Origin: Modestobacter sp. L9-4 | Lineage (GTDB): Bacteria; Actinomycetota; Actinomycetes; Mycobacteriales; Geodermatophilaceae | DNA: 64,000 nucleotides | Direction: 5' to 3' | NCBI RefSeq assembly: GCF_019112525.1 | Contig: NZ_CP077800.1 | Location: 1,736,001-1,800,000 of the forward strand | Shown here: piece by piece, positions 23,741-32,757 of the stretch | Position numbering within the stretch: position 1 is the first letter of the stretch | Layout of the letters: each line of letters opens with the position of its first letter | Translations under genes and position numbers: made by a program | The notes under the pieces: model-generated | Told to the model about the DNA's origin: nothing | Databases searched by the model: none | The model's input: only the letters and a program-made list of their open reading frames with translations

Positions 23741-24478
23741 TCAGCCGGCGGCGACCGGGACGGCCGACGGGACGGCGATCAGGCTGCTGAGCCGGTGCGC
23801 GGGCACCAGGTCCTCGGCGGCCGCGCGGGGTGCCGGCAGCTCCGCCGCGGGACGGGGCGCCAGGTCGAGCACCATCCGCGTGGGCGCGAACGCCTCGGCG
23901 TAGCCGATCCGCGCCTGCGCGCCCCAGTGCCGGGCCGACGCCACGACGGCGTCCGGCTCGACCATCGCCGACATCTCCACCTGGGAGGCGTGCGCGCCGA
24001 GGGCGGCGAGCTTGCCCGACAGGTGCGCGGTGACGTCGACGAAGACCGTCGGGGTGAAGGTCAGCGTCGAGGGGCTCTGGTAGTGCATGACCCGGGACAG
24101 CCGGCGCGCGGCGGACAGCGTGGCTGCGGACACCGCCCGGTGGTCCTGGTGGCTGTCGTCGGGGGCGTGCACGTAGACCAGGTCGGCGTCGGTGGCCCGC
24201 AGCACGGACTCGATGATGCCGATGGTGGCCGAGTCGGGGACGACGGTGCAGTCACGCAGCCCGCCCCACTCCAGCTCCGCGCCCAGGGTGCGGGCGGCCC
24301 GCTGCTGCTCCTGGCGGCGGCGGCTGATCTGGCTGCGCTCGTCGCCGGGGCCGTTCTCCCCGCCGGTGAGCACGAGCATGGTGACCCGGTCACCGGCCGC
24401 ATGGTGGGCCAGCAGCGTGGCGCCGCAGCCGAGCTCGATGTCGTCGGGGTGGGCCCCGACCGCCAGCACGTTACGCAT
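23741..24478 (-). CDS. PIG-L (LmbE-like) family deacetylase
   Basis: A 245-aa zinc hydrolase. The metal and catalytic motif AHPDDIELGCG (about 8-18) and the second ligand motif HQDHR (about 111-115) are intact. PIG-L enzymes remove N-acetyl groups from GlcNAc-linked substrates such as GlcNAc-PI or mycothiol precursors. It is the last gene of the seven-gene exosortase/glycan operon and overlaps the previous gene by 8 nt. A role in deacetylating an amino-sugar made or attached by that operon is plausible, and the 2-epimerase encoded upstream acts on UDP-GlcNAc. The substrate is inferred. Confidence 0.85.
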   Translation of the reverse strand: MRNVLAVGAHPDDIELGCGATLLAHHAAGDRVTMLVLTGGENGPGDERSQISRRRQEQQRAARTLGAELEWGGLRDCTVVPDSATIGIIESVLRATDADLVYVHAPDDSHQDHRAVSAATLSAARRLSRVMHYQSPSTLTFTPTVFVDVTAHLSGKLAALGAHASQVEMSAMVEPDAVVASARHWGAQARIGYAEAFAPTRMVLDLAPRPAAELPAPRAAAEDLVPAHRLSSLIAVPSAVPVAAG

Positions 24479-25121
24479 CGACGGGCTCCTGGTGAGGGGT
24501 GAGGGCGTCCGCCCGGCGGCGTGCCCGGCGGACCATCAGCGCGCCGAGACCGGCGGCGACCGCGAGGGCCCCCACCACGCCCGTCCCGTTGCCGTCGGCC
24601 GGCATCTGGGTGTCCTTGGGGCAGGCCGGGGTGGACGTGCGGCTGATGGTCAGCTTGGAGTTGCCGAGGGTCCAGTAGAGGGTGCCGGAGCTGACCGCCA
24701 CCCGGAACACCCCGGAGTAGGTGCCGGGCTTGAACACCGTGGGCTGCTGGCCGTTGTAGGACGACGGCGAGATGACGTTGTAGTCACCGGTGATCGTGTA
24801 CGTGCTCGAGCTGGTGTTCCGGTAGCCGAGCACCGCGGTGTAGGCGCCGTTGGTGCCCGCCAGGACGCAGTTGAGCACCGGGGTGACGACGACGGCCCCG
24901 GTGTACCCACCGGTCGAGCCGCCGCTGTAGCCACCGTTGTAACCGCCGTCGTTGTACCCACCGTTGTAGCCGCCGTCGTACCCGCCGTAGTAGCCGGCGG
25001 CGGAGGCCGACGCGGGCAGGACCACGGGGGCGACCACCGCGAGCAGCGCGGTGAGCAGGGCGAGCGCCCCGCTGCGCAGCCGCCGGCCGGGCCCTCGGCC
25101 CGTCGGTGCGTTCTCCGTCAT
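24471..25121 (-). CDS. secreted Gly-Tyr-rich protein with C-terminal sorting-like signal
   Basis: A 216-aa protein. A signal peptide occupies about 1-41 (RRLRSGALALLTALLAVVAP...ASASA). Residues 43-73 are a run of GGY repeats with Asp/Asn spacers. Residues 76-168 look like one beta-rich domain with two Cys (85 and 167). The C-terminus is tripartite: TQMPADG at 171-177, a hydrophobic helix (about 180-197), then RRARRR at 198-203 and a 13-residue tail. Motif, helix and Arg cluster is the layout of exosortase/archaeosortase and sortase substrates, and an exosortase gene lies four genes upstream in the same operon. The start at 25119-25121 overlaps the HAD gene stop (ATGA). It is a likely surface or glycan-linked protein. 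Confidence 0.75.
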   Translation of the reverse strand: MTENAPTGRGPGRRLRSGALALLTALLAVVAPVVLPASASAAGYYGGYDGGYNGGYNDGGYNGGYSGGSTGGYTGAVVVTPVLNCVLAGTNGAYTAVLGYRNTSSSTYTITGDYNVISPSSYNGQQPTVFKPGTYSGVFRVAVSSGTLYWTLGNSKLTISRTSTPACPKDTQMPADGNGTGVVGALAVAAGLGALMVRRARRRADALTPHQEPVDA

Positions 25122-25957
25122 CGTCCTGCCCTCAACTGGGTCGTGTACGAGCTGTCCTGTCCCCATGTCATCGACAGCTCACCGCCCGTGCTGGCCACCC
25201 GCGGGCCCAAGTCACGCGAACGGGTGAGGCGCCCGTCCACGTCGGGTGGGCCGATCACGGAGAGTGCGCGGGCAGCCGCCTCCGGGAAGCTGGCGGTGAC
25301 CGCCCAGGCCGCCGGGACGTCGGGCGCGGTGGCGTACTCGCCCTGCCGCACCCGGATCGCCCGGGCGCCCACGGCGGCCGCGACGGCGACGTCCTTGCCC
25401 GGCCGGTCGCCGATCATCAGCAGCCGGTCGGCGGGTACCCCGAGCCGGGCGGCGACGGCCAGCAGCCCGGCGGGTGCGGGCTTGCGGGTGGCGCGCCCGC
25501 CGAGGGAGTCGCTCAGGACGACGAGCGGCAGCAGCCGGTCCAGCCCGGTGCCGGCCAGCTTGGCCCGCTGGATCTCCGGGGCGCCGTCGGTGAGGCAGGC
25601 CAGCGGTGCGGCCGCGGCCAGCGCGGTCAGCGCCGCCTCGACCCCGGGGTAGGTGGGCAGCCGGTCCGGCCGGTGCCCGGTGAAGGCGGCGACCAGCGGC
25701 GGCAGCAGGGCCGGCAGCTCCCCCGGGGCGACGCCGGCGGCGAGCAGCGCGCGGTCGATCGTGCCGCCGGTGTCGGAACCGGCCGCCAGCTCCGCGACGA
25801 GCGCGGCGTGCACGGCGTCGCCGTCCAGGCCGGCGGTGCCGGCCGCGGCTCCGACGGCCGCGGCCGCACCGGCGAGGTAGGCGGCCTGCGGGTAGAGCGT
25901 GTCGTCGAGGTCGACGACCACGGCCAGCGGTGGCGGCCCGGACCAGCCGGTCACCAC
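25118..25957 (-). CDS. HAD-family hydrolase (phosphatase)
   Basis: A 279-aa protein with HAD motif I DLDDTLYP (Asp nucleophile about residue 16), motif II (CLTDG), the Lys of motif III (RKPAPAGLL) and motif IV (MIGDRPGKDV). The long insert between motifs I and II fits a C1-type cap. The last 45 residues (PDVDGRLTRSRDLGPRVASTGGELSMTWGQDSS...) are an unusual, probably flexible tail. The start is GTG 25957 or GTG 25954; the latter would give the 4-nt overlap seen elsewhere in this operon. It is probably a sugar-phosphate or nucleotide phosphatase of the glycan pathway. Confidence 0.85.
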   Translation of the reverse strand: MVTGWSGPPPLAVVVDLDDTLYPQAAYLAGAAAAVGAAAGTAGLDGDAVHAALVAELAAGSDTGGTIDRALLAAGVAPGELPALLPPLVAAFTGHRPDRLPTYPGVEAALTALAAAAPLACLTDGAPEIQRAKLAGTGLDRLLPLVVLSDSLGGRATRKPAPAGLLAVAARLGVPADRLLMIGDRPGKDVAVAAAVGARAIRVRQGEYATAPDVPAAWAVTASFPEAAARALSVIGPPDVDGRLTRSRDLGPRVASTGGELSMTWGQDSSYTTQLRAGR

Positions 25958-27102
25958 GGGAGCCGGCCGTCGGTGAAGTCGGGCTCGGTGAGCTCGAGCA
26001 GGGCGTCGGTGCGCTCGTCGGCCAGGATCGCCGCGATCTGCGTGCCGGTGGTGCCGTCGCCGTAGGGGCAGGGCAGCGCGGCGGCCCGGGCCTGCCCGGC
26101 GGCGGAGGTGTGCGCGGCCGCGGCGGTGAGCACGGCCTGCGCGGCGCCGTCGTCGGTCAGCCCGGCCAGCGTCGTCGTCCCGGCCTCGACGCCCTCCCAG
26201 CGAGGTGTGGAGGAGCGCAGCACCACGACCGGGACGCCGAGGTGGGCGGCCTCCTCCTGGATGCCGCCGGAGTCGGTGACCGCCAGCTGCGACGAGCGCA
26301 GCGCGGCCATCAGCGTGTCGTGGTCGACCGGCCCGGTGAGCCGGATGCCGGGGTGTTCCAGTGCCCCGCCGAGGCCGGCGGCGGCCAGCCGGGCGGTGGT
26401 GCGCGGGTGCACCGGGAAGGTGACCGGGCCGACCTGGTCGGCCAGGCCGCGCACGACGGCCACCAGCCGGGCCAGCCGCACCGGGTCGTCGACGTTGGTG
26501 GGCCGGTGGGCGGTGACCAGCACCCCGCGGCGCTCGGCGACCGGGACCGGCGTGACGCCCCGGGCGACGAGGGTGTCGATGACCGGGTTGCCGACGACGA
26601 ACACCCGCTCGGCCGGCACGCCCTCCCGGCGCAGCGAGTCCGCGGCCCGGGCGGTGGGGGCCAGGTGCAGCTGGGCGATCGCGGCGGCGACCCGCCGGTT
26701 CACCTCCTCGACGCTGCGCATGTTGTAGCTGCGCAGCCCGGCCTCGACGTGCGCGAACGGCACGCCCGCGCCGCGGGCGGCCAGCGCGTACGCCGGGACG
26801 GTGTTCGTGTCGCCGAGGGCCAGGACGACGTCGGGGCGGAAGCGGGCGAGTGCGGTGGCGGCGTCGGCGTGCAGTGCGCCGGTGCGGGCCGACGCGGGCT
26901 CGGCCGGCAGCGTGAACCGGTGGGTCGGGGTGAGGCCGAGGGCCTCCTGCAGCTGCGAGGCCATCGCGGCGTCGGCGTGCTGCCCGGTGTCCACGACGTC
27001 CACCCGGTGCCCGGCGGCGACGAGCGCGGCGACCACCGGGGCCAGCTTGACCACCTCCGGTCGGGTGCCGAAGGGCACCAGCACGTGCCGGCTGCGGGTC
27101 AC
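25951..27102 (-). CDS. wecB: UDP-N-acetylglucosamine 2-epimerase (non-hydrolysing)
   Basis: A 383-aa enzyme of the GT-B-like WecB fold, which interconverts UDP-GlcNAc and UDP-ManNAc. Family landmarks are GTRPEVVKLAPV (about 12-23), HVEAGLRSYNMRSVEEVNRR, GNPVIDTL, TAHRPTNVDDPVRL and the UDP-binding TDSGGIQEEA. A longer open frame continues upstream, but the GTG at 27100-27102 overlaps the previous stop (GTGA) and gives the family length. The presence of this enzyme predicts a ManNAc-containing or derived glycan as product of the operon. Confidence 0.9.
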   Translation of the reverse strand: MTRSRHVLVPFGTRPEVVKLAPVVAALVAAGHRVDVVDTGQHADAAMASQLQEALGLTPTHRFTLPAEPASARTGALHADAATALARFRPDVVLALGDTNTVPAYALAARGAGVPFAHVEAGLRSYNMRSVEEVNRRVAAAIAQLHLAPTARAADSLRREGVPAERVFVVGNPVIDTLVARGVTPVPVAERRGVLVTAHRPTNVDDPVRLARLVAVVRGLADQVGPVTFPVHPRTTARLAAAGLGGALEHPGIRLTGPVDHDTLMAALRSSQLAVTDSGGIQEEAAHLGVPVVVLRSSTPRWEGVEAGTTTLAGLTDDGAAQAVLTAAAAHTSAAGQARAAALPCPYGDGTTGTQIAAILADERTDALLELTEPDFTDGRLPW

Positions 27103-28238
27103 CCGGTCACCGCGGGGACGGCGCAGGGGTCGGCGACGGAGCGGCCGTCGGGGGCGGTGTAGGTCTCGGCGAAGTACCGGCTCATCCGGACCCCGGGGGT
27201 GAAGAACAGGTAGGGCAGCTCGGCCGCCGGCTCGCGGACCCCGGCGAGGTAGGTGCCGACGACGTCGGCGCCGGCGGCGAGGGTGAGCGGCAGACCACCG
27301 CTGAACCGCGGGTTGATCTCCACGACGGTGACCGTGCCGTCGTCGGCGACGAAGCCCTGCACGTTGGCCGGGCCGGTGAGCGCGACCGCCGCGAGGGCGT
27401 CGGCGACCACGCTGGTGACGGCCTCGGAGTCGAAGGTCGTGCCCTGCACGGAGATGCCGGCCTTGGTCGCGTCCCGCCAGCGGGGGACGACGGTCAGCAG
27501 GGCGCCGTCGCGGGCGACGAGCGCGTCGGCGGTGAACTCCCGGCCGCTGAGCCGGGTCTGCACGATCAGGCCGGGGTCGGCGGTCATCGCGGCCGCGACG
27601 GCCTCGGCGGTGTCCAGCAGCTGCACGCCGCGACTGCCGCGCCCGGCGCGGGGCTTGACGATCCACGGCCCGGGCACGCCCGCCGCGCCCTCGACGGTGG
27701 CGGCGGTCGCCGGCGTCGGCACCCCGGCCTCGACCAGCCGGACGGCGAAGGCGGCCTTGTCGCAGCACAGGTCGACGGCGGCCAGCGCGGGCAGCCAGGT
27801 GGCCAGGCCGGCGGCGGTCAGCCGGTCGGCCGCGGCGGTCAGGGCGGGCAGCTCCTCGGCGACGGTGCTCACCAGTGCGTCGGCGCCGTGCTGGTGGGCG
27901 AAGGCGACCAGGGCGTCGACGAAGGACGGGTCGTCGGCGCGGGGGACGACGCCCCCGACGGTGGCCAGCGCGCTGCCGGCCGCGATCGGGTCGATGTCGA
28001 CCGCGACCACCCGGTGCCCGAGGGCGACCAGGCGGCGCACCACGGCGACGCCGGCCGGCCCGCCCGAGCCGGTGACCAGCACCGCCGACCCGGACGCCGC
28101 CCGCGCAGCCGGGGCCGGGGCGGGCGGCGTGGGCCGCGGGACGGCGGCGGCCGGCACCCCGGGACGGGGCAGGTCGCGCACGTCCACCACGGCCGGACGC
28201 GGCGGCGGGACCGGGTACGGGTACAGGGAGCGGGTCAT
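27099..28238 (-). CDS. ATP-grasp domain protein (carbamoyl-phosphate synthase-like)
   Basis: A 379-aa protein. A Pro-rich leader (about 1-50) is followed by a Rossmann-like pre-ATP-grasp domain (VLVTGSGGPAGVAVVRRL...VVAVDIDP) and an ATP-grasp domain: WIVKPRAGRGSRGV binds phosphates, and VVEINPRFSGG is the Mg2+ site. The family forms acyl-phosphates and ligates carboxylates to amines. In glycan clusters such proteins often attach amino acids to sugars or build unusual sugar parts. The ATG at 28236-28238 overlaps the exosortase stop by 4 nt, and its own stop overlaps the epimerase start by 4 nt. The substrate is unknown. Confidence 0.85.
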   Translation of the reverse strand: MTRSLYPYPVPPPRPAVVDVRDLPRPGVPAAAVPRPTPPAPAPAARAASGSAVLVTGSGGPAGVAVVRRLVALGHRVVAVDIDPIAAGSALATVGGVVPRADDPSFVDALVAFAHQHGADALVSTVAEELPALTAAADRLTAAGLATWLPALAAVDLCCDKAAFAVRLVEAGVPTPATAATVEGAAGVPGPWIVKPRAGRGSRGVQLLDTAEAVAAAMTADPGLIVQTRLSGREFTADALVARDGALLTVVPRWRDATKAGISVQGTTFDSEAVTSVVADALAAVALTGPANVQGFVADDGTVTVVEINPRFSGGLPLTLAAGADVVGTYLAGVREPAAELPYLFFTPGVRMSRYFAETYTAPDGRSVADPCAVPAVTG

Positions 28239-29443
28239 CGGGCGTCCTCGGCGTCGGGTGCTGACGGGTGCGGTGCTGACGGGTGCGGGGCTGACGGGGT
28301 CGGGGTGGGTCGGGAGAAGCTGCGCGGTGGCGGCCCGGTGCGTGGTCCGACCGTCGGCACTGCGACCGGCCCGGGGACGACCGCCGGGGCCGGGTCGGTG
28401 CGGGCCGGACCTGCTGTGACGGGCGCGGGGGCGGCCGTGGCACGGGCGGTGGCGGCCAGTCCGCGGCTGAGCAGCCAGCCCCGCGCCCACAGCCGCAGCG
28501 AGGACACCCGCTCGTTGGTGATCGGCTCCCACTGCCGGGCGGCGATGGCGCCGGCGAGGGCGTCGAGCACGTCGGCGTCCTGCTCGTAGGTGGCCACGGC
28601 CAGCAGCGAGGCGGTGTGCGCGCCCAGGCCGTCGGCGGCGAGCACGCGCACCCGCTGCACCCGGTCGTGCACCGGCAGGTGCCCGATGCGGTAGTCGATG
28701 CGGGCGGCCTCGCGGCGGGCGCCCAGCCAGCGGGACCACCGGCGGGGCAGCAGGGAGCGGTGCACGAGCCCGGCGAGGTTGCGTCCCTGCACGGGCACCG
28801 CCTGGTCGAACTCCGGCAGCCGGTAGCCCAGGCCCGGCCGGGCCCAGCTGCTGGGACGGCGGGCGGTGTGCCGGCCCGCGACGTCCTGCTCGGCCCGCAT
28901 GCGGGAGGGCAGCGTCACGCAGACCATCAGCAGGAACCCGCCCAGGGTCGCGGCGAGGTTCCACAGCGTGCCCACCCAGTCGTGGAAGAGCACCAGCGAC
29001 CCACCGCCCCACTGCAGCCCGATCACCGTCGAGAGCAGCAGCCGCAGGTGGTTGGCGACGAGCACCGCGACGACGGCGACCAGCAGGCCGGCCAGCGCGT
29101 GCCCGCGCCGGCTGCGCAGCACCGAGGCGGTCAGCGCGGTGAGGCCGACGACCGACAGGACCGACGAGCAGGAGGCGGTGACGACGGCGTTGAGCAGCTC
29201 GCCGTCGGGACGGAAGACCAGGATCCGGGTGGGGAGCACGCCGGAGACGGAGTCGACACCGACCAGGTGCAGCACGCCGACGACCCAGCTCGCCTCCTGC
29301 ACCTGCAGCCAGTGGGCGCCGTAGCGGTACCCGACCAGGCAGACCAGCCCGGCCAGCAGCAGGTCCCCGATGACGGCGACCTGGCGCCGGGTGCTGGCCC
29401 GCGGCCGGCGCGGGACCGGCGGCACGAGCAGCGTCTCAGCCAC
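28235..29443 (-). CDS. exosortase/archaeosortase-family transpeptidase with C-terminal extension
   Basis: A 402-aa protein. The first about 180 residues hold six or so membrane helices and the three exosortase catalytic residues in the expected order and setting: Cys92 (VTASCSSVLSVVG), Arg134 (VANHLRLLLS) and His154 (FHDWVG). The remaining 220 residues are cytoplasmic: a charged helical region about 190-330, then a Pro/Ala tail with tandem PSAPH units encoded by a 15-bp repeat. Exosortases cut a C-terminal motif/helix/Arg signal and pass the protein to an acceptor in the envelope. The Gly-Tyr protein at 24471 is the nearest candidate substrate. It overlaps its upstream neighbour by 8 nt and its downstream neighbour by 4 nt. 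Confidence 0.8.
   Translation of the reverse strand: MAETLLVPPVPRRPRASTRRQVAVIGDLLLAGLVCLVGYRYGAHWLQVQEASWVVGVLHLVGVDSVSGVLPTRILVFRPDGELLNAVVTASCSSVLSVVGLTALTASVLRSRRGHALAGLLVAVVAVLVANHLRLLLSTVIGLQWGGGSLVLFHDWVGTLWNLAATLGGFLLMVCVTLPSRMRAEQDVAGRHTARRPSSWARPGLGYRLPEFDQAVPVQGRNLAGLVHRSLLPRRWSRWLGARREAARIDYRIGHLPVHDRVQRVRVLAADGLGAHTASLLAVATYEQDADVLDALAGAIAARQWEPITNERVSSLRLWARGWLLSRGLAATARATAAPAPVTAGPARTDPAPAVVPGPVAVPTVGPRTGPPPRSFSRPTPTPSAPHPSAPHPSAPDAEDAR
28258..28302 (-). repeat. 15-bp tandem repeat inside the exosortase gene
   Basis: GTGCTGACGGGTGCG occurs twice without mismatch (28258-28272 and 28273-28287), with a third diverged copy (28288-28302). On the minus strand the array encodes repeated PSAPH units at the protein C-terminus. 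Copy number may vary between strains. Confidence 0.8.
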
Positions 29444-30899
29444 GCCGAACCACCGCCCCGGAGTCGGGAGCGGCGAACGAGCGCGGCGCGGCGGCCGGGG
29501 CCGGCAGCGGGACGGCGGCCGGGGCGAGGGTGGAGGTGGCGCCGGAGCGGGTGGTCTTCACCCAGGTGTAGGGGCGGCCGAGCATGCCGTCGAGGTAGGC
29601 GCGGGAGGTGATCCAGATGGACAGGGCGAAGGAGGGCAGGAAGCCGATGAGCTGCCAGGCCGCCTTCCGCTCGACCCGGCTGACCAGCAGCCCCACGCTC
29701 AGCTCGGCCAGCGGGCCGACGAACAGCAGCATCGACAGCGGCAGCAGCCCGATCAGCGGCAGGTCGCCGATGCCGAAGGCGCGCAGCACGGTGAGGGTCA
29801 GGCCGATGCCCGACAGCACCGGCACGTGGTAGGTCAGCAGGAACATCATCGACTCGGCCTTCTCGACCAGCGTGAGGTGCTCCGAGCGCATCATCGGGCG
29901 CCAGTAGTCGCGCATGCACTTCTGGTGGCCGCGCGCCCAGCGGTAGCGCTGCTTCCAGAAGCGGCGCGCGGTGACCACGGCCTCCTCGTAGTCGACGGCC
30001 GAGACGTCGTAGCGCACCCGCTGACCCGACAGCAGCACGCGCAGGGTGAGGTCGGTGTCCTCGGTGACGGTGTGCGGGTTCCAGCCGCCCAGGGCGCGCA
30101 GCGTCGACATGCGCACCGCGCAGTTGGCGCCGCCGTAGGCGGGCAGTTCGAACATCGCCTGCCGGCCGTACTCGTTGACCAGGTAGCCGGAGAGGTAGTC
30201 GACGAAGACGACCGAGGCCAGCGAGGAGTCATGACCGTTGCGGATGACGCAGCGGCCCATGACGGCACCGACCACGGGGTCGCGGAAGTGCCGCACCAGG
30301 CGGCGCAGGGCGTTGGGGTCGGGCTCGTGGTCGGCGTCGAAGACCAGCACGACCTCGGCGTCGACGGTGGCCAGCGCCTCGTTGAGGGCACCGGACTTGC
30401 CGCCGCCGGAGCCCGCCGCCCGGTGGATGACCCGCAGCCGCGGCTCACGCCGCGCCCAGGCGTCCAGCCGGGGACCGGTGTCGTCGTCCGAACCGTCGTC
30501 GACGACGACGAGCTGGAGCCGGTCGGCCGGGTAGTCCAGGGCCAGCAGCGCCCGGATCATCCCGTCGACGACCAGCTCCTCGTTCTTGCAGCCCACGAAG
30601 ACCGCGACCGGGGGCGTGTATCCCTCCAGGTCGACGTCGGCGGCGAGCAGGTCGGCCTCGGCCCAGCGGGCCGCGGAGACCGCGAAGGCCAGGTGCCGGC
30701 AGAAGTAGACGGCGAAGACGACGTTGATGACGCCGGCGGTCACGCCGAGCGTGCGGTCGACGCCGAAGAACAGGAAGGCGGTGAGGGCGAGCAGCACGTA
30801 GGCGACGAGCGCACCGACCCGGGCCTCCGGGCGGTCGGCGTGCGAGCCGACCGACGGGACGTCGGGGGTGCCCTCGACGACCGCGGGCTGTGCGGGCAC
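29436..30899 (-). CDS. membrane glycosyltransferase family 2 (processive polysaccharide synthase-like)
   Basis: A 487-aa protein. Two N-terminal helices (about 29-47 and 50-76) are followed by a cytoplasmic GT2 domain with VVVDDGSDDDT (about 131-141), the FDAD metal site (D188-A-D190), the acidic base in TVTED (E280-D281) and QRYRW (Q317-W321), the QxxRW motif of processive synthases. Three or four C-terminal helices and an Ala/Pro tail come last. The combination matches hyaluronan-, cellulose- or PNAG-type synthases that polymerise and export a beta-linked polymer. The GTG at 30897-30899 has GGAGAGGA upstream. It is the first gene of the exosortase operon and probably makes the glycan on which the operon acts. 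Confidence 0.9.
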   Translation of the reverse strand: MPAQPAVVEGTPDVPSVGSHADRPEARVGALVAYVLLALTAFLFFGVDRTLGVTAGVINVVFAVYFCRHLAFAVSAARWAEADLLAADVDLEGYTPPVAVFVGCKNEELVVDGMIRALLALDYPADRLQLVVVDDGSDDDTGPRLDAWARREPRLRVIHRAAGSGGGKSGALNEALATVDAEVVLVFDADHEPDPNALRRLVRHFRDPVVGAVMGRCVIRNGHDSSLASVVFVDYLSGYLVNEYGRQAMFELPAYGGANCAVRMSTLRALGGWNPHTVTEDTDLTLRVLLSGQRVRYDVSAVDYEEAVVTARRFWKQRYRWARGHQKCMRDYWRPMMRSEHLTLVEKAESMMFLLTYHVPVLSGIGLTLTVLRAFGIGDLPLIGLLPLSMLLFVGPLAELSVGLLVSRVERKAAWQLIGFLPSFALSIWITSRAYLDGMLGRPYTWVKTTRSGATSTLAPAAVPLPAPAAAPRSFAAPDSGAVVRRG

Positions 30900-30931
30900 G
30901 ACGGGTCCTCTCCGGGTGGCGGTACGGGATC

Positions 30932-30947
30932 GGTGCTGGTCAGCACC
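30932..30947. promoter_or_regulatory. palindrome upstream of the exosortase/glycan operon
   Basis: GGTGCT-GGTC-AGCACC is a perfect 6-4-6 inverted repeat, 33 nt before the glycosyltransferase start and within the divergent promoter region shared with the polymerase gene. It is a candidate operator; no regulator gene is adjacent. Confidence 0.4.
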
Positions 30948-31068
30948 ACTGCTCGATGGAGTGATCGGCACCGGGCCGCGGGCTCTTGAGCGCGTCCTGG
31001 ACCCTGCGGTGCCGCACCGCCGGGGAGCTGCGCCCGGTCCTGTCGGACCCGTGGACGAGACTGCGCCG

Positions 31069-32757
31069 GTGACCGACGGACCGCCCCGGAGCGCGGTCGG
31101 CACCGGGGTGGCCCGGGTGCTGCTGACGCGGCAGGGGCCCGACGCCGTCCTGGCCCGCGACCTGGCCGCCGACGGCAGCACGGTCGGGCTCACCGAGCTG
31201 CCGGCCGGGCGGCTGGCCGGGTTCGTCGCCGACCGGGAGGCCGACCGCCCGCGCTGGGTCTGGGACGACACCACGCGCTGGTACCCGCAGCTGCTGGCCG
31301 CTGGCGTGCGGGTCGAGCGCTGCACGGACCTGCGGCTGTCCCACGCGGTGCTGCGGCGCTCCCCGTTCGCCGACCCGGCGCTGCTGGCCGGCCCCGACAC
31401 CGCGGGCTGGGACTCCCTGGAGCCGGTGTCGGCCGCCGAGCCGGCCCTCTTCCCGCTCGAGGACCCTGCCGACCGCCTGGACCCCGCCGCCGAGCACGCG
31501 CGGCAGCAGGCCACCGTCGCCGCAACACCCCAGCGGGCGCGGCTGGGGCTGCTGCTGGCGGCGGAGTCCGGTGGGGCGCTGGTCGCGGCCGAGATGACGC
31601 ACGCCGGGATGCCGTGGCGGGCCGACGTCCACGACCGGCTGCTGACCGCGCTGATGGGCCCGCGGCCGGTGCGCGGGGCGCGGCCGGCCGGCCTCGAGCG
31701 GCTGGTGCCCGACGTCCGGGCGGCGCTCGGCGCACCGGACCTCAACCCCGACTCACCGCCGGACCTGCTCCGGGCGCTGCAGACCGCCGGGCTGCCGGTG
31801 GCCGACACGCGCTCCTGGACGCTGGAGCAGCTCGACCACCCGGTGGTCGGGCCGTTGCTGGAGTACAAGAGGCTCTCCCGGCTGCTCGCGGCGAACGGGT
31901 GGACGTGGCTGGACACCTGGGTGGCCGACGGGCGCTTCCGCCCGACCTGGCTGCCCGGTGGGGTGGTCACCGGGCGGTGGGCCTCCTCGGGTGGTGGTGC
32001 GCTGTCGGTGCCGGTCCCCGTGCGACCGGCCGCCCGGGCCGACGAGGGCTGGCGGTTCGTCGTCGCCGACGTCGCGCAGCTGGAGCCCCGGGTGTTGGCC
32101 GGGATGAGCGGTGACACGGTGATGGCCGAGGCCGCACGGGCCGCCGACCTGTACCAGGGGATGGTCGACAGCGGGGCGGTCGCGACCCGGGCGGAGGCCA
32201 AGATCGGGATGCTCGGGGCGATGTACGGCGCCACCCGGGGAGAGAGCGGCCGGATGATGCCGGGGCTGACCCGCCGCTACCCGCGGGCCATCGGGCTGGT
32301 CGAGGAGGCCGCCCGCGCCGGCGAGCGTGGCGAGGTCGTGCACACCCTGCTCGGCCGCGGCTCCCCCCTGCCAACCGGCGCGTGGGCCGTGCCGGCCGGT
32401 GAGGAGCCCGACGGCGCCCTGTCCCCCGAGGACCGGGGTCGGGAGCGCCGGTCCTGGGGCCGGTTCACCCGCAACTTCGTCGTCCAGGGCACCGGGGCCG
32501 AGTGGGCGCTGTGCTGGCTCGCCGACCTCCGCAACCGGTTGTGGCGGCTGGGGGCCGGCGAGCTCACCGCCCGCCCGCACCTGGTGTTCTTCGTGCACGA
32601 CGAGGTGGTCGTGCACACCCCGGCCGGGCTGGCCGACGAGGTGACCGCGGCGGTGCGCACCGCCGCGGTCGAGGCCGGCCGGCTGCTGTTCGGCACGTTC
32701 CCCGTCGACTTCCCGCTCGACGTGTCCGTCGTCCGCTCCTGGGCCGACGCCGCCTGA
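31069..32757 (+). CDS. bifunctional 3'-5' exonuclease/DNA polymerase I-like protein
   Basis: A 562-aa protein resembling the Klenow part of Pol I. Motif A is FVVADVAQLEPRVLAGMSGD, motif B region AEAKIGMLGAMYGATRGE, and motif C HLVFFVHDEVVVH. The N-terminal third is an eroded exonuclease-like domain (WVWDDTTRWYPQLLAAGV...), and there is no 5'-nuclease domain. Motif B lacks the usual RRxxKxxNFGxxYG spelling, so polymerase activity may be altered. Stand-alone proteins of this kind are widespread in actinobacteria beside a full PolA. The frame is open upstream; the GTG at 31069 is preferred, with GTG 31051 an alternative. It is divergent from the glycan operon. Confidence 0.85.
   Translation: MTDGPPRSAVGTGVARVLLTRQGPDAVLARDLAADGSTVGLTELPAGRLAGFVADREADRPRWVWDDTTRWYPQLLAAGVRVERCTDLRLSHAVLRRSPFADPALLAGPDTAGWDSLEPVSAAEPALFPLEDPADRLDPAAEHARQQATVAATPQRARLGLLLAAESGGALVAAEMTHAGMPWRADVHDRLLTALMGPRPVRGARPAGLERLVPDVRAALGAPDLNPDSPPDLLRALQTAGLPVADTRSWTLEQLDHPVVGPLLEYKRLSRLLAANGWTWLDTWVADGRFRPTWLPGGVVTGRWASSGGGALSVPVPVRPAARADEGWRFVVADVAQLEPRVLAGMSGDTVMAEAARAADLYQGMVDSGAVATRAEAKIGMLGAMYGATRGESGRMMPGLTRRYPRAIGLVEEAARAGERGEVVHTLLGRGSPLPTGAWAVPAGEEPDGALSPEDRGRERRSWGRFTRNFVVQGTGAEWALCWLADLRNRLWRLGAGELTARPHLVFFVHDEVVVHTPAGLADEVTAAVRTAAVEAGRLLFGTFPVDFPLDVSVVRSWADAA

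Follow-up and report, generated by a model that had tools for sequence, protein, structure and literature searches.

We report here that a seven-gene operon of Modestobacter sp. L9-4 probably (at an estimated 70%) forms a self-contained protein-sorting module, in which an exosortase would cut a secreted protein encoded in the same operon and join it to a surface glycan or glycolipid that bears an amine and is made by the products of the neighbouring genes. The operon occupies positions 23741-30899 of the minus strand in the window, i.e. the 64,000-nucleotide stretch that was analysed (C1:1736001-1800000 of a 4.22-Mb single-contig genome). As a preliminary description of this DNA had proposed, its genes encode, in order, a family-2 glycosyltransferase (GT2), the exosortase, an ATP-grasp ligase, a UDP-N-acetylglucosamine (UDP-GlcNAc) 2-epimerase, a HAD-family phosphatase, the probable substrate (hereafter SUB) and a PIG-L family deacetylase, and the junction overlaps announced as 4-8 nucleotides measure 8, 4, 4, 7, 4 and 8 nucleotides along the operon. 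The catalytic residues of the enzymes and the C-terminal tail of SUB are conserved, and the exosortase, SUB and the ATP-grasp ligase co-occur tightly across genomes. The novelty lies in an exosortase of unnamed subtype with a conserved helical domain, in a new sorting signal, and in sugar genes which raise the possibility of an aminoacylated amino sugar as acceptor, similar to that proposed for the unrelated type IX system.

An exosortase of unnamed subtype

An ordered Cys, Arg and His triad is a feature of the exosortase/archaeosortase superfamily. In the product of the exosortase gene (28235..29443, minus strand, 402 amino acids), the previously noticed Cys92, Arg134 and His154 are kept in 33 of 33 aligned rows (the window protein and 32 relatives), and the triad is also found in all 46 readable rows, out of 47, of the locus set presented below. 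The assignment to the superfamily is confirmed by the general model TIGR04178, which the window protein passes with 32.4 bits (cut-off 23) and which is matched by 33/33 homologues at E 0.01. No named subtype of NCBIfam is reached by the window protein: the nearest model, XrtS (NF033767), gives 28.9 bits of a cut-off of 145, a comparison made for this protein only (best E among the homologue rows, 1.6e-13), and the scores are also below cut-off for ArtF (18.2 of 150), ArtC (16.4 of 100) and XrtR (15.7 of 150). Similarly, the Pfam model EpsH (PF09721) is matched with 18 bits, under its cut-off of 25.7; many homologues carry a precomputed PF09721 annotation, which weighs against setting this enzyme apart from the PEP-CTERM/XrtA type.

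In the AlphaFold2 model of the exosortase (mean predicted local distance difference test score, pLDDT, of 78), the exosortase core is short and leads into a helical domain. This conserved C-terminal domain (about residues 181-340; 28424..28903) has its helices between residues 223 and 337, with a pLDDT of about 88-98 per block for residues 251-340 and below 50 for residues ~184-220, and the 33-row alignment reveals invariant blocks that include WA, PG, GYR, RQWEP and RLWARGW. By hydropathy, the exosortase and GT2 contain four hydrophobic segments each, SUB has a signal peptide and one further segment at its C terminus, and the four remaining proteins have no such segment; the number of segments in the exosortase suggests that its helical domain probably lies on the cytosolic side. 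No Pfam match covers this domain and no PDB sequence matched the exosortase at E 1. Fold searches of the exosortase and SUB models against the PDB gave no hit reaching E 0.001, for which reason we assign no structural relative to either protein; the placement of domains in both models is unsure because their predicted template modelling scores are only 0.53 and 0.50, respectively.

A secreted protein with a conserved C-terminal sorting signal

SUB (24471..25121, minus strand, 216 amino acids) is the probable substrate of the exosortase, as judged from its model, its alignment and its co-occurrence with the enzyme. It is composed of a signal peptide (about residues 1-42; 24996..25121) with a hydrophobic segment at residues 19-37 followed by PASASA, a Gly-Tyr linker modelled with low confidence, an Ig-like beta-sandwich, and the C-terminal sorting signal. 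The start at 25121 was preferred over the longest ATG (25166) because it gives a 4-nucleotide overlap with the HAD gene, in line with the overlap pattern of the operon. The strands of the sandwich lie within residues 79-159 with a pLDDT mostly above 90 (mean of the whole chain, 68), and C85 and C167 are invariant in 34/34 aligned rows. SUB has no match in NCBIfam and two sub-threshold matches in Pfam, and no convincing family emerged from either.

The sorting signal consists of the motif MPADGNGTG (residues 173-181; 24579..24605), a hydrophobic helix (about residues 182-198; 24528..24578) supported by the structure model and hydropathy, and a terminal RRARRR. Across 34 diverse SUB rows, P174, N178 and G179 are invariant, and the tail takes the general form [LM]P-x-x-[GA]-N-G, hydrophobic helix, and arginines or basic residues. 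The motif-helix-arginine architecture proposed earlier is thus retained, with MPADG itself being one form of [LM]PxxGNG. In the wide alignment, mean column identity amounts to 0.75 for the motif and 0.49 for the SUB domain, and it falls to 0.06 for the Gly-Tyr linker. The description of the protein as Gly-Tyr-rich is correct for the window SUB but does not extend to the family: the run stands out only there and in two Modestobacter loci (L059 and L060) among the 34 rows and is lacking in a third Modestobacter locus (L070), so that on this alignment it is a lineage-specific trait and no general feature. Among database proteins, the tail is found in 46 of 49 relatives of SUB and in 51 of the full set of 54; of the three proteins lacking it, two seem to be truncated ahead of it and the third (P0174) is a distant relative that carries a PKD-like domain. 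Extra N-terminal domains may precede the SUB domain, such as an F5/8 type C domain (galactose-binding type) in P0169 and an F5/8 type C-like domain in a Klenkia SUB (L076:13395-13949), the tails of both reading LPxLANG in place of LPADGNG.

The preliminary description had assumed a single substrate, and this has to be revised since the genome encodes three SUB proteins, namely the operon copy and two unlinked copies at C1:1931685-1932206 and C1:1301144-1301653. The tail is kept in 9/9 unlinked copies read, which originate from eight exosortase-positive genomes (two copies in this genome and one each in G010, G013, G026, G034, G055, G110 and G119). SUB-positive genomes show one to three SUB matches in 31 of 32 cases, the exception being G138 with four pieces. 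A fourth match to the tail pattern in this genome (L108) was not counted, as it does not read as a short C-terminal tail. As a side observation, the unlinked SUB gene at C1:1301144-1301653 is located near genes that resemble, from their translations, galT/galK and an acetyltransferase gene.

Co-occurrence of the exosortase, SUB and the ATP-grasp ligase

In a sample of 96 Geodermatophilaceae genomes, the exosortase was found in 33, a match in G004 (E 1.9e-4) that covers only the Pro-rich tail at query residues 301-401 having been dropped from the initial 34 before counting. SUB is present in 32 of these 33 genomes and in none of the 63 others (E 0.001; Fisher's exact test, 1.1e-24, uncorrected for kinship), which supports the earlier proposal that the secreted protein is the substrate; a wide distribution of SUB homologues without an exosortase, named beforehand as the result that would speak against it, was looked for in the 96 genomes and not observed. 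The same distribution applies to orthologues of the ATP-grasp ligase (at least 65% identity), found in 32/33 exosortase genomes and 0/63 others (E 1e-30), 12 of these 63 having a paralogue at 38-41%. The SUB and ligase sets are identical and correspond to the exosortase set minus G129, a metagenome-assembled genome (MAG) of 84% completeness with its exosortase gene in two pieces. The pattern is not accounted for by one split between clades, because it recurs inside five genera, with exosortase-positive fractions of 5/18, 2/9, 17/20, 3/16 and 2/18. At the DNA level, the pattern for P[AE][DE]GNGTG was detected in 21/96 genomes, all 21 exosortase-positive, and the reversed-pattern control in 0/96. 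Correlated distances between module genes were not used as evidence, since these genes are linked.

These data bear on whether a class E or F sortase could process SUB while the exosortase acts on something else. Indeed, the tail has an LPxxG-helix-basic layout, one of the 34 aligned copies reads LPATG, the genome displays 7 sortase-family matches in 4.2 Mb, and 2/34 SUB rows weakly touch the LPXTG model TIGR01167 at E 0.1 (best E 0.043), a level at which the tail does not qualify as LPXTG-type. However, sortases occur in 96/96 genomes and SUB (32/96) does not track their presence, being found only together with the exosortase. Moreover, threonine occupies the LPXTG position in 1/34 rows, whereas N178 and G179, which come shortly after it, never vary in these rows, and neither Pfam nor NCBIfam reveals a sortase in the operon. 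Processing by a sortase is therefore considered very improbable.

Gene order of the module across genomes

Collecting the gene order across genomes, as the preliminary description had suggested, was performed with two exosortase peptides as query on one genome per species (84,980 species), a scan that finds only relatives keeping those peptides. It yielded 46 loci, of which 34 belong to Geodermatophilaceae (one a MAG), 8 to Micromonosporaceae and 4 to other MAGs. The genes for GT2, exosortase, ATP-grasp ligase, epimerase and HAD phosphatase are contiguous in that order in 44/46 loci, the contig ending in the other two; since the exosortase alone served to find the loci, chance does not account for this arrangement. 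BLAST detected SUB in 41/46 loci. The five loci without it comprise three in which the contig ends before the usual place, L086 (from G026), whose SUB copy lies on another contig, and L104. SUB adjoins PIG-L in most loci, the two being located at opposite module ends in L069, L072 and L073, and the order SUB-PIGL-GT2-EXO-ATPG-EPI-HAD (EXO, exosortase; ATPG, ATP-grasp ligase; EPI, epimerase) with all seven genes characterizes 8/8 Micromonosporaceae loci and three MAGs (L092, L093 and L102). For these Micromonosporaceae and MAG loci, SUB identity is 27-33% where aligned. In an exosortase tree of 44 rows, Geodermatophilaceae and Micromonosporaceae each form one clade, and the window protein groups with two Modestobacter loci (support 100/99).

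The position of the ligase gene is informative with respect to a simpler scheme, in which the exosortase would merely cut SUB free as a protease and the sugar genes would serve the synthesis of a separate exopolysaccharide, bound by SUB without a covalent link. Such a scheme would agree with the galactose-binding type of domain in P0169 and with a passage of PMC7468200, where the acceptor to which bacterial exosortases attach their targets is termed an unidentified compound. Against it, the ligase is confined to exosortase genomes as described above, and its gene directly follows that of the exosortase in 44/44 loci with a contig reaching the whole ligase gene, which fits direct coupling better. 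We thus regard a purely proteolytic role as unlikely.

Besides the resemblance of the tail to LPXTG signals in a genome with seven sortases, several observations weigh against a dedicated sorting module. The absences counted in the 96 genomes hold at the sensitivity of a search that scored, for each genome, only the top candidates of a first look (at most 19 for the exosortase and 36 for SUB). In L104, a Frankiales MAG, the other six genes of the module are present, but BLAST found no SUB and the 16 kb examined contain no tail. The motif tolerates variants, with Ser for Pro in 3/54 database proteins, GNST in L090, and ANG for GNG in Klenkia and one Blastococcus. Finally, the tail was not seen on any protein without a SUB domain in this genome, the only one searched, and it is consequently not shown to be a portable signal.

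Sugar genes and the nature of the acceptor

The protein-sorting module would operate as follows. SUB would be exported via its signal peptide and retained by its C-terminal helix; the exosortase would then cleave at [LM]PxxGNG through Cys92, with the help of Arg134 and His154, leaving the helix behind, and the new C terminus following the beta-sandwich would be joined to the amine-bearing acceptor, a glycan or glycolipid of the cell surface. Cleavage, transfer and all of the substrate chemistry are inferred.

The epimerase family found here supplies UDP-N-acetylmannosamine (UDP-ManNAc), enzymes of the PIG-L family take N-acetyl groups off their substrates, amide formation is a frequent activity of ATP-grasp enzymes, and GT2 enzymes with a QxxRW motif are often processive. 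In the operon, the non-hydrolysing UDP-GlcNAc 2-epimerase (25951..27102, minus strand, 383 amino acids), which may yield a ManNAc-type precursor, scores 249 bits against TIGR00236 (wecB; cut-off 210) and keeps D98, E120, E133 and H199, which we take to be functional residues, in 45/45 rows. The PIG-L protein (23741..24478, minus strand, 245 amino acids, no signal peptide seen) may take off the acetyl group; it matches PF02585 with 91 bits and the BshB1 model with 96.4 bits, under the cut-off of 182.5, and its HPDD and HxDH motifs are found in 46/46 rows. We also observed two tandem PIG-L genes after SUB in several Blastococcus loci (L079, L081, L083 and L087). The ATP-grasp ligase (27099..28238, minus strand, 379 amino acids), a candidate for amide formation, exceeds the cut-offs of PF02655 (56.8 bits) and PF15632 (60.7 bits), and the HAD-family phosphatase (25118..25957, minus strand, 279 amino acids), which may remove a phosphate, matches PF00702 with 62 bits and displays DxDxT in 45/45 rows. 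The membrane GT2 (29436..30899, minus strand, 487 amino acids), encoded by the first gene of the operon, would build or transfer the sugar; it carries DxD, TED and QxxRW motifs and matches PF13641 with 91 bits and the PgaC model with 134.9 bits, under the cut-off of 422. GT2, the ligase, the phosphatase and the deacetylase have Pfam domains over cut-off, but no listed NCBIfam model reaches its cut-off for them. The catalytic motifs examined in all six enzymes are retained across loci.

This gene content makes the attachment of SUB to a ManNAc-type glycan, as put forward in the preliminary description, plausible. A more specific scheme, which we offer as tentative, is that the acceptor is a 2-amino sugar of the ManNAc series, deacetylated by PIG-L and aminoacylated by the ATP-grasp ligase, whose free amine would resolve the acyl-enzyme of the exosortase, with the cytosolic domain of the latter docking the sugar-making enzymes. 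Alternatively, the exosortase could attach SUB to a lipid or glycolipid anchor, GT2 making a lipid-linked sugar and no polymer. Along this line, archaeosortase A has been modelled, in a published scheme that its authors call speculative, as a Cys acyl-enzyme resolved by the amine of ethanolamine, and, by sequence, the solved structure closest to GT2 is that of a family-2 transferase (6yv7). Conversely, the presence of QxxRW and TED in 47/47 rows and the similarity of GT2 to PgaC and cellulose synthase fit a processive enzyme. A lipid anchor is accordingly held as possible, though doubtful.

Comparison with known sorting systems

The signal of PGF-CTERM proteins has a helix and a basic tail, as does SUB. 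The kind of system described here is already known, since exosortases beside polysaccharide genes have been described and since a Gram-positive exosortase, XrtG, is reported in Lactiplantibacillus, where neighbouring locus tags encode a Firmicu-CTERM protein and two glycosyltransferases (PMC12854382). The preliminary description implied that a Gram-positive exosortase paired with a substrate of its own would be new; this is hence not upheld. The two systems share a Gram-positive exosortase, a CTERM protein and glycosyltransferases, and GT2 scores 61 bits against TIGR03111, the XrtG-associated model, which has a cut-off of 364. In contrast, no epimerase, ATP-grasp, HAD or PIG-L protein is named for XrtG in the passages of PMC12854382 considered, and no XrtG or Firmicu-CTERM model is found among the families listed at the E-values used (5 for the exosortase, 0 for SUB, and 13 and 15 for the homologue sets). 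The PEP-CTERM/EpsH (XrtA) system and XrtS, R, T, P, H and X share, in published excerpts, the TIGR04178 superfamily, a motif-helix-basic signal and nearby polysaccharide genes, whereas SUB bears [LM]PxxGNG and no PEP motif. Archaeosortase A has in common a Cys enzyme and an amine nucleophile, yet its published model involves an archaeal lipid acceptor and mentions, in the excerpts considered, no sugar-modifying genes.

The proposed acceptor follows the same logic as that of the Porphyromonas type IX system. In excerpts of the published work on the latter, two putative enzymes, a deacetylase and one that transfers an aminoacyl group, are proposed to complete the linking sugar joined to cargo C termini, and the authors speculated that the sugar used by exosortase systems is modified with an amino acid. 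In both cases, the C terminus of the cargo would be joined to an amino sugar that has lost its acetyl group and bears an amino acid. The Wbp/Vim pathway relies for this on a CE4-type putative deacetylase (VimE) and the femAB-related VimA, and it serves an outer-membrane system, whereas a PIG-L and an ATP-grasp protein are found here; judged from gene content, the same chemistry is thus predicted with different and unrelated enzymes. Pfam and NCBIfam searches of the operon, the only part of the genome searched for them, revealed no VimA/VimE-type genes.

The module is not named in the literature found, which comprised titles, the beginning of abstracts, and passages of PMC7468200, PMC7157517, PMC12188702, PMC8951740, PMC12854382 and PMC11631085. 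Neither the exosortase subtype nor its sorting signal, both added by this work, has a name in this literature or in the Pfam and NCBIfam copies searched, and the same holds for the C-terminal domain and for the set of acceptor-type genes. Our analysis also shows that soil actinobacteria which are named and in culture carry the enzyme, its probable targets and a handful of sugar genes together, as a single seven-gene unit. As the unit is compact and accompanied by one to three SUB proteins in nearly all genomes, the nature of the acceptor could be addressed with one or two deletions combined with mass spectrometry.

Additional observations

A metagenome protein of 698 amino acids (P0022) combines the exosortase and the ATP-grasp ligase in one reading frame. 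If real, this fusion, read on one metagenome contig, would support a physical coupling of both enzymes; it was set aside because a single indel at the gene overlap could create it. Antisense open reading frames of the region were left out of the gene list. Upstream of the operon and outside it, a divergent gene on the plus strand (window positions 30868-32757) encodes what we take to be an actinobacterial DNA polymerase I-like protein.

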